DNA from: Prochlorococcus sp. AG-388-E21
GTDB lineage: Bacteria > Cyanobacteriota > Cyanobacteriia > PCC-6307 > Cyanobiaceae
Assembly: GCA_003279855.1 (NCBI GenBank)
Contig: QCGO01000007.1
Location: 1-64,000, forward strand
Direction: 5' to 3'
DNA: 64,000 nt
The notes beneath the pieces were generated by a model. It was not told where the DNA came from and made no database searches. It saw nothing but the letters and a program-made list of their open reading frames with translations. Positions 1,723 through 40,292 of the stretch are shown piece after piece (within the stretch, counting starts at the first letter, position 1; each line of letters begins with the position of its first letter). The position numbers and the translations under genes are program-made.

Positions 1723-1794
1723 GACAAGGTACGGGAAGAGGTAAGTATATCTACTTATAAGGTTGAATATTTTGTCTAGAATCAAAATATGGTT

Positions 1795-1820
1795 GTCATG
1801 AGATATTTGTAGGGATGCAG
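1795..1820 (+). promoter_or_regulatory. Leader motif shared with the hairpin at 11571-11608
   Basis: GTCATGAGA (1795-1803) is followed after five bases by GTAGGGATGC (1809-1818). The same two blocks, in the same order, occur on the minus strand at 11608-11583. Here the motif sits about 35 bases upstream of the start codon of a 41-codon gene, so it could be part of its 5' leader or of a small RNA. The similarity is seen; the function is inferred. Confidence 0.4.
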
Positions 1821-1854
1821 CTTAAGCCAACTATAGTTTTAAGGAAATTAAATT

Positions 1855-1980
1855 ATGACTCAAAGAACAATTCAATTAACTCATCATGGAATGTCATTAG
1901 TGATTTGGTTGATCGCATTAAATAGTTTATATACCTTATTTTCTACATTTGAAAAAGCATTAAGTGATTCCGAAAAATAG
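1855..1980 (+). CDS. Small single-span membrane protein (41 aa)
   Basis: ATG at 1855 is preceded by AAGGAAATTAAATT, a plausible ribosome-binding site. The product begins MTQRTIQLTHHGMSLV and has one hydrophobic helix (about residues 13-29) and an acidic C-terminus. No family is recognised. The clear start, ribosome site and membrane helix make it a likely real micro-gene. Its leader holds the GTCATGAGA/GTAGGGATGC motif. Confidence 0.55.
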   Translation: MTQRTIQLTHHGMSLVIWLIALNSLYTLFSTFEKALSDSEK

Positions 1981-11368: not shown

Positions 11369-11817
11369 ATTGAATTTAATCTATATCCTTTTTTAGCAAA
11401 GTTATTTTATCTTGACAGTAAAGTTTCAAAAATAAACTCTGATGCATAAGTTCTTATTCAACAACTTTTTCTTAAGTGCGAATCAATGCCTTATATAAAT
11501 TTTTTTATTTCAAATTAAAAACTGTTGATTCATTATTTTACAAACTGATACTATTTGCAAAAAATTAAAAAGAGCTTGCTCGCATCCCTACTAGCAAGCT
11601 CTCATGACGATTAAGTTAAATTCAGATTGACTTGAGCTTAACCAGCTAAGCACTTCCTAAATGCTTATTAATATTATAGTAAGTAAAATTACTTACTGTG
11701 AGTATAAATACTTAAATTGGGCTATGCTTGATTTAGCTGGCTAATCTATTTTATTCAAAAGAAATTTTAAACTCAATCTAATAATGCTTGTTAAAGACTT
11801 TGAATTTAAATAACGAC
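11369..11817. other. Non-coding stretch with hairpin and palindrome
   Basis: No gene is evident in these 449 bases. The stretch carries the leftward hairpin at 11571-11602 with its GTCATGAGA leader (11600-11608) and the palindrome GAGTATAAATACTT at 11700-11713. Together these suggest a short leftward RNA starting near 11700 and ending in the hairpin. Confidence 0.45.
11561..11602 (-). terminator. Hairpin terminator with conserved TAGTAGGGAT loop, copy A
   Basis: On the minus strand AGAGCTTGCT pairs perfectly with AGCAAGCTCT around a 12-base loop (AGTAGGGATGCG) and is followed by TTTTTAATTTTTT. No coding frame lies directly upstream, so it may end a small RNA. Its loop matches the plus-strand hairpin at 13882-13919. 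Confidence 0.7.
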
Positions 11818-13361: not shown

Positions 13362-14132
13362 TTAATTTGTAATATTATAAATTCAGGATTGATAAGGAAA
13401 ATAAGTATTTATACTTAATCAAACAATAGATTAAAGCACTTATGTTTCTGAAAGTTTGACTCTTGCAATTGGTATTCTTATAAGAAATTCTTTAGCTTAG
13501 TCAATATTAATTAATCTTATCTCTGCCTGAGATAACCCTATAATACCATTAATCCACTAATAACTGTGATTTTAGTTAGCGTTAGTATATTCATAGTCAA
13601 AATTTAATAGATCTCTTAGGTTCTAATACATTGAAAAAATTCTTCTAATTATTATTTAATATACAAACCAATCTACTTAAAAATTTAAAGAACACGGATA
13701 GCAGTTCAAATAAGGATAGATCAACATAAACATGATTATGTTTAAGGAGTCTTTCTTATTATCCTTTTTTCATTTTTTTTAGTAACCAAATTCTTGCACT
13801 TTATTATTTATAAAATAATTTTGAGCAGATTTTTTATTAAGATCAAATCCTCATTTAATATATATTTTAACTAATATTATTAAAAGAGTTAGCTAGTAGG
13901 GATACAGGCTAACTCTTTTTTATTTAAAAAAATTTTTTAAGAAATAGAAACCTCCCAAAATGCAAAAGAAGAATATCTTTTTATCTAATATTCTTTTTTT
14001 AGATCGCTTTAATAATTAATTTAAAAGTATTTTAATTTTTTTATACAAATTTAAATTCTTGAATATTTAGATTAAATACTCTTTTTATTTAAGAAAATAA
14101 TTGCTATTAATAAATTAATTAAAAAAATAGTT
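13362..14132. other. Long non-coding stretch with hairpin and palindrome
   Basis: This stretch of 771 bases has no convincing gene. It holds the palindrome AAGTATTTATACTT at 13403-13416, an 18-codon hydrophobic minus-strand frame at 13538-13594, and an inverted repeat around AAACATGATTATGTTT near 13728-13743. It also holds the plus-strand hairpin at 13882-13919. It is the largest gene-free stretch of the window and a good place to look for small RNAs. Confidence 0.5.
13882..13925 (+). terminator. Hairpin terminator with conserved TAGTAGGGAT loop, copy B
   Basis: AAAAGAGTTAGC (13882-13893) pairs over 12 bases with GCTAACTCTTTT (13908-13919) around the loop TAGTAGGGATACAG, followed by more T. 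No gene lies upstream for over 500 bases on this strand, so it probably ends a non-coding RNA. Its loop shares ten consecutive bases with copy A. Confidence 0.75.
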
Positions 14133-40138: not shown

Positions 40139-40200
40139 TGAAAATTTTTGAAAGGTAATTTATTTTTAATAAGCGAGAAATTTTAAATATGCAAATCTCT

Positions 40201-40214
40201 AAGTATAAATACTT
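40201..40214. promoter_or_regulatory. Palindrome AAGTATAAATACTT upstream of the DoxX gene
   Basis: A perfect 14-base palindrome in the intergenic region 40139-40292, about 80 bases upstream of the DoxX start. The same palindrome, or a one- or two-base variant, is at 11700, 13403 and 18926. An operator role is inferred. Confidence 0.4.
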
Positions 40215-40292
40215 AATTAAAGATCAGTTTTATGGTTTAATCCACGATGAATAATGTGGCTAGTTATTTTTACTTAAGAAATACGTTTTATA

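Follow-up and report, generated by a model that had tools for sequence, protein, structure and literature searches.

The window is a stretch of 64,000 nucleotides from Prochlorococcus sp. AG-388-E21 (contig QCGO01000007.1). On its plus strand, GTCATGAGA lies at 1795-1803 and GTAGGGATGC at 1809-1818, ahead of a gene for a 41-amino-acid protein (1855-1980, plus strand). On the minus strand, the same blocks recur at 11608-11600 (GTCATGAGA) and 11591-11582 (GTAGGGATGC), and a hairpin at 11571-11602 has a 10-bp stem, a 12-nt loop, and a T-tail. At a third locus, 13882-13919, there is a hairpin with the loop TAGTAGGGATACAG. A preliminary description of the window had given these block positions, and they held, save that one end was off by one (11583 was given; 11582 is correct). 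The 8-mer GTAGGGAT occurs four times in the window, against 0.81 expected, and 1 of 100 shuffles reached four; genome-wide it is not enriched (25 occurrences in this genome, versus 31 for the reversed control). Taken alone, this 8-mer is weak evidence. The non-random part is not the 8-mer core but the pair of blocks, which is far above chance: the pattern GTCATGAG-N3..18-TAGGGAT was found in 104 of 151 Prochlorococcus genomes, while the reversed pattern had one match in all 151.

The minus-strand locus is a known small RNA. Comparison with the Yfr RNAs, as the preliminary description had suggested, showed that 11577-11666 (minus strand) matches Rfam family Yfr20 (RF02367; PMC2518516), with a cmscan score of 99.9 bits against a gathering score of 44. 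The element that carries the blocks, which we will call the module, forms the 3' end of Yfr20: at 11568-11612 (minus strand), it comprises the flank AATCGTCATGAG, a stem, the loop AGTAGGGATGCG, and a T-tail. A search with the Yfr20 family at E up to 0.001 gave matches in 43 of 99 genomes, each of which belongs to this genus, and placed one copy exactly at the published MED4 coordinates (1336435-1336523), so we take that genome (G015) to be MED4. In MED4, Yfr20 is an 89-nt RNA from genomic island 5 with its own transcription start, and it was the only ncRNA of that study to rise from darkness to high light (PMC2518516). It is short-lived, at 2.0 min, and in 2010 Yfr1 to Yfr21 were described as being of unknown function (PMC2897979). 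Induction by high light via its own promoter is known for MED4 (PMC2518516); for the genome studied here, we assume it by analogy. All 30 Yfr20 loci have the flank TCGTCATGAG, despite divergence in the central part of the RNA, and a group of Yfr20s with a shortened stem mostly has GUGGGAUAC where others have GUAGGGAUAC or UGC. We also noticed that the 5' hairpin (the first 20 nt, AGCATTTAGGAAGTGCTT) is almost invariant across the 30 loci; this hints that the RNA has another functional part in addition to its 3' module.

The module consists of a 5' flank (AUCGUCAUGAG, or (A)UCGUCAUGAG in the form used for alignment), a variable stem, a loop with UAGGGAUR, and a U-tail. We aligned 25 diverse elements with stems of up to 11 bp. 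At 8 of the 11 stem pairs, both sides have changed; 94.1% of cells are paired, compared with at most 57.5% if the two sides are slid. These elements were chosen by a pattern that fixes the flank and the loop, and the selection itself thus accounts for the conservation of both within this set. A loop-blind search, anchored in the stem of the hairpin behind a gene for a 59-amino-acid protein, found TAGGGATA in nearly all of the module matches returned, with variants within those eight letters in six genomes. (The matches also include an unrelated recurrent site, with the loop CCATTTTGTC, and a few single matches.) Among nine alignment rows with a changed GGGA, seven keep a GNRA loop, as judged by eye, which suggests a structural role for the loop. 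The modules meet the criterion for intrinsic terminators (a G+C-rich hairpin followed by a U-run); the leader at 1795 does not.

We built a covariance model, R1, from the 25 elements, leaving out the loci at 13875 and 1795. R1 scores the Yfr20 module at 68.4 bits (the model included a close relative of it), 13875-13919 (plus strand) at 40.2 bits (E = 2e-7), and 1791-1825 at just 14.4 bits (E = 0.2). The covariance model for Yfr20 itself reports nothing at 13875 or 1795, even with permissive thresholds. The loci at 11608 and 13882 are thus members of one family; 1795 has both blocks too, and its membership is less certain. In sum, the three loci are one known small RNA, one new relative (13875), and one probable relative (1795).

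The second module, at 13875-13919 (plus strand), has the loop TAGTAGGGATACAG, a 12-bp stem, and a T-tail, without the flank block. It folds better than 200 of 200 shuffles. Its counterparts lie 1.6-4.7 kb from Yfr20 and point away from it; in MED4, the equivalent of position 13919 is near 1333767 on the minus strand. Their stems differ by paired changes (between the window, MED4, and others), while the loop is identical in 10 of 10 aligned orthologues. According to the preliminary description, loops that were not conserved in relatives would have refuted a recognised motif; both this loop and the Yfr20 flank are conserved, and its suggestion of a recognised RNA motif, perhaps a small-RNA family, held. 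There is no clear gene in front of the 13875 hairpin, which could be the 3' end of an unannotated RNA, although the transcript is only inferred.

At the third locus, the element at 1788-1835 (plus strand) has an outer stem, TATGGTTG/CAACTATA, around GTCATGAGA and GTAGGGATGC. The preliminary description had viewed it as the leader of the 41-codon gene: the blocks are confirmed, the fit to the family is weak, and the blocks have decayed in some orthologues. Relatives of the 41-aa gene are found in 75 of 151 genomes, and the protein has no match in NCBIfam or Pfam. In 30 loci sampled from those 75 genomes, the leader is present in 8 (L065-L071 and L075); in the other 22, the 41-aa gene lies directly behind what appears (by eye) to be another coding end. 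Both blocks are intact in the window, G010, and G149; MED4 and G028 have one loop change each; and the loop is lost in G161, G175, and G021. The outer helix is paired in 95% of cells and the inner in 90%, but covariation does not rise above shuffles (2 of 14 pairs changed on both sides, which 100 of 500 shuffles reached), and the window's leader folds no better than shuffles. On balance we lean towards considering this leader a module relative, if a weaker one. We also considered a riboswitch or another known leader family, but of four Rfam matches in 1500-2100, none came near its gathering score and none overlapped 1795-1818. Separately, a block at about 1706-1741 (TGTACGGTTTAAGGAACGACAAGGTACGGGAAGAGG, with repeated GTACGG) is strongly conserved upstream of leader-type 41-aa genes.

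Modules are hosted by Yfr20, by hli operons, by the family of 59-aa genes (MNLGLLFLKVN...), and by the 13875 hairpin. A gene for 35 or 36 amino acids (MDFISKRQGY...) that lies behind an hli gene also precedes a module, and hli genes alone precede the module at C4:171337 in the same genome as the window and in G172, where the protein passes the Pfam cut-off for PF00504. The 59-aa and 35/36-aa families have no match in NCBIfam, and the members that we tried have none in Pfam.

Within the genus, R1 has matches at E up to 0.1 in 145 of the 151 genomes, including 51 of 51 of high quality. Across the family (genomes at least 85% complete, E up to 0.01), it matches 114 of 334 genomes, all in 1 of 37 genera, with no match in the other 36. 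(G348, a genome of the same genus, has no match, and large R1 searches lose weak matches.) The genus includes the high-light strain MED4 (PMC7368042). We take it to be the high-light clade as a whole. A search of all genome contigs with the two-block pattern returned matches mostly from unrelated phyla. Viruses do not seem to be carriers: R1 was run on each of the 110 viral stretches that hold the two-block pattern exactly, and it gave four matches at E up to 0.5, the best at 25.8 bits. Three of them, which we inspected, resemble chance, and the fourth (L281) scores 21.7 bits. The 20-nt pattern of the 13875 class was found in no viral stretch. A genus-wide module common to Yfr20 and hli operons is new.

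The three loci are also near a shared DNA dyad, TAAGTA-N4-TACTTA, which gives some support at the DNA level to the preliminary description's other proposal, a shared regulator site. The dyad occurs at 10 places in this genome (none for the reversed control), at 5 in MED4 (none), and at 4 each in G042 and G022 (one palindromic control place each). The four in the window are at 1742-1757 (TAAGTATATCTACTTA, before the 41-aa gene), 11680-11695 (before Yfr20), 13402-13417 (41 nt before a 44-aa reading frame on the minus strand, about 460 nt upstream of the 13875 hairpin), and 40200-40215 (before a DoxX-family gene). A shorter dyad with one mismatch is no commoner in the window than in shuffles. Of the 30 Yfr20 loci, 27 could be oriented, and in all 27 the dyad precedes Yfr20 at an almost constant distance: it is exact in 20, has one mismatch in 6, and has two in 1. 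By eye, it precedes all 8 leader-type 41-aa genes. Elsewhere it precedes genes that match an alternative-oxidase family, NdhI, and NAD(P)H-quinone oxidoreductase subunit 4 (ndhD-type); these family matches, and the one to DoxX, come from 100-aa pieces. The dyad could be a light or redox operator; the transcription factor is unidentified.

Patches that stay conserved while their stems change point to base pairing, and we therefore searched for complements of these patches. CTCATGACG occurs at 31 sites in seven genomes: 14 are modules (on the other strand), 7 are the start of one gene, and 10 are elsewhere. As a 9-mer it is not enriched in these genomes (31 versus 27 for the reversed control). 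The gene start recurs once per genome in 7 of 7, and none of the 10 other sites is found in more than two genomes. The gene is psbD, which encodes the D2 protein of photosystem II (TIGR01152, 705 bits). Its start reads CGUAUCCC-GAAGCUAAAAACGAUUU-CUC-AUG-ACG-AU. Furthermore, (C)GUAUCCC, the complement of the loop block (GGGAUAC or GGGAUGCG), lies 17 nt (16 in G042) before CUCAUGACG; the layout GUAUCCC-N16/17-CUCAUGACGAU holds in 7 of 7 genomes, and GTATCCC was not part of the query that found the psbD starts. Both blocks thus match the psbD start, in the right order for one antiparallel complex. This complementarity, which goes beyond the preliminary description, is conserved at a single target start in all seven genomes, as is expected of trans-acting base-pairing small RNAs. 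Estimated duplex energies are -18.5 to -18.8 kcal/mol for the flank and -11.2 (UAC form) to -13.8 (UGC form) kcal/mol for the loop. UCAU is the only open part of the flank in the predicted fold of free Yfr20, and GGGA is the only open part of the loop patch, with the rest mostly paired; the psbD sites are half open in their predicted fold. GTATCCCTA alone occurs at 47 places in the seven genomes, versus 64 for its control, and beyond the modules, recurrent places are in two genomes each (among places whose locus was examined, which is not all of them).

Is psbD a better partner than other genes? With 300 dinucleotide shuffles of the psbD start, the native value was reached 0 or 1 times for whole modules and three times for 13875. 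Of 49 gene starts from the window, two outscore psbD for 13875 and one does so for the leader; for the other modules, none does. We also ranked 1008 gene starts taken from parts of three genomes outside the genus, with a single psbD among them. It came first for class A modules (-39.7, next -31.6), for class C (-37.9, next -34.0), and for Yfr20 (-37.7, next -37.3, a thin margin of 0.4 kcal/mol), but it was outside the best six for the hli-operon module, 13875, and the leader. Among 248 starts from the home genus, after setting aside an open reading frame antisense to a module (L427), psbD leads for Yfr20, class A, class C, and hli-operon modules; one start ranks above it for the leader, and three do for 13875. 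When the flank and loop of class A were shuffled, 0 of 72 versions reached -39.7, and the gap of 8.1 compares with at most 5.6. Finally, we considered 60 aligned modules (61 matches minus one unrelated terminator, L436:806), whose rows are related and not independent. A perfect complement of at least 9 nt is found in the flank of 35 of the 60 (shuffles: mean 0.09, maximum 2), and one of at least 7 nt is found in the rest of the module in 33 of the 60 (shuffles: mean 3.5, maximum 9).

The psbD sites are also present outside the genus. In the outgroup G195 (L615, 620001-640000), the psbD start already has both, CCGTATCCC and CTCATGACGATCGC. Since R1 is silent outside the home genus, the conservation of these sites is independent of the module, and something other than the module may keep them in this module-free relative. 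The antisense of the G195 psbD start contains GATCGTCATGAGTG, the class A flank; this would fit an origin of the module by inverted copying, which remains a possibility and is not proven. In cyanophage psbD genes (8 of 512 matching records), the region between 120 nt upstream and 30 nt downstream of the start contains neither GTATCCC nor CTCATGAC. The module would thus have no hold on the synthesis of phage D2. The eight phage D2 proteins (L517-L524) begin with MVAST, MTTST, or MTSST and not with MTIAV. Scanning viral contigs for the two sites yielded 45 stretches, and no relative of D2 is encoded in them.

We propose that the module is a terminator-forming antisense element of this one Prochlorococcus genus that acts as a two-point clamp on the start of the psbD mRNA. 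The flank AUCGUCAUGAG would pair across the start codon (CUCAUGACGAU), and the apical loop (GGGAUAC or GGGAUGCG) would pair with GUAUCCC or CGUAUCCC, ending 19-20 nt before the AUG. We infer that the target between the two sites could bridge the folded stem. If the stem merely spaces the patches, this explains why it varies while the loop and the flank do not. Since Yfr20, which high light induces, ends in the module, as do hli operons and small-protein mRNAs, light-stress transcription would be coupled to a block on ribosome loading at psbD and to lower D2 synthesis. The 13875 hairpin would offer only the loop patch; the 1795 leader has both patches and could pair with psbD from a 5' UTR. The family, the stem covariation, the hosts, the range, and the complementarity are observed; pairing in the cell, repression (probably in strong light), and action in trans of mRNA 3' ends are all inferred. 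We consider it likely that pairing with psbD is the module's function, with no interaction or expression data to draw on, and we are less sure of the sign of the effect. psbD as a specific predicted target is new, as is two-point pairing as an explanation for conserved loops on unrelated stems.

The other explanations are all unlikely. First, the flank and loop might be the site of an RNA-binding protein or a ribonuclease that marks light-stress transcripts, with the psbD match a coincidence. Conservation of loop and flank on varying stems would fit, as would the retention of GNRA in most loop variants and a 13875 class that keeps the loop without the flank. However, both blocks match a single gene start in the right order in all seven genomes. 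The CsrA site resembles the module loop, but the gene for CsrA, the sole protein that we examined, is absent from 61 of 61 genomes, while a control search found CsrA in 3 of 14. Second, the arrow might be reversed: psbD mRNA, abundant by day, could bind Yfr20 and the hli mRNAs and stabilise or sequester them. The same complementarity supports this, as do the midday peak of psbD mRNA (PMC2663038) and the short life of Yfr20 (PMC2897979). But the contacts lie over the psbD start codon, which is the usual place for repressing the bound mRNA.

It is likewise unlikely that these are plain intrinsic terminators that spread with duplicated genes, with their likeness due to descent and the psbD pairing without a role. 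Several copies do lie behind paralogous genes, all have T-tails, and two copies in MED4 are identical. However, the hosts include unrelated genes and a small RNA, the stems diverge with compensation while the flank and loop stay, and the 1795 leader has the blocks yet no terminator. Lastly, the blocks might encode a mini-ORF (ATG AGN NNN NNN TAG), which is in frame at 1797 and in Yfr20, but this is all but ruled out: the frame is broken in copies such as GTCATGAGCTTGCTTTTAGGGAT, in several classes, and 13875 has no ATG.

We found no link between Yfr20 and psbD in the open-access literature that we searched; one paper (PMC2897979) has both words, in separate tables. In its sections bearing on Yfr20, the paper that described it gives neither a target nor a tie to hli 3' ends, and "psbD" is absent from its main text (PMC2518516). 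Our two-point clamp resembles ApcZ, an RNA from an mRNA 3' end that ties light harvesting to photoprotection by inhibiting translation. ApcZ differs in coming from one operon and acting on ocp, whereas our module is on many transcripts, its predicted target is psbD, and the photoprotection genes are the hosts. PsrR1 of Synechocystis is a light-responsive small RNA that represses photosystem mRNAs near their starts, and its targets are photosystem I and antenna genes. The two would be alike in light-linked repression near the starts of photosystem genes and would differ in their targets. Yfr1, Yfr2, and Yfr10 of Prochlorococcus are also multi-copy small RNAs with conserved unpaired motifs, but the motifs are different, and "Yfr20" and "hli" are absent from the main text of that paper (PMC6778093). 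The Yfr2 pull-down contains psbD mRNA (PMC6778093, whose text labels psbD as CP43 and psbC as D2).

Prochlorococcus has few regulatory proteins (PMC2518516). A bolder version of our proposal is that high-light Prochlorococcus has a movable antisense clamp, which may have begun as the psbD start copied in inverse orientation, and that this clamp was added to photoprotection mRNAs and to Yfr20 at their 3' ends. The hli-type transcripts would then themselves hold down D2 synthesis in trans and stand in for protein regulators in a minimal genome; we are inclined to doubt this, if not by much. In MED4, psbD mRNA peaks at midday (PMC2663038). In strain PCC 9511, psbD mRNA follows irradiance and the D1 and D2 proteins fall by 30-40% by day (PMC3441193). 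A daytime drop in D2 despite the rise of its mRNA could reflect translational repression in strong light, but other causes would fit too. If correct, our proposal may contribute to an explanation of the fall of D2 in PCC 9511 at the brightest time of day, when psbD mRNA rises. A target of Yfr20 that is common to hli operons would link photoprotection with the synthesis of photosystem II in a very abundant ocean phototroph, and mRNA 3' ends would have been recruited repeatedly, within one genus, to act on one gene.
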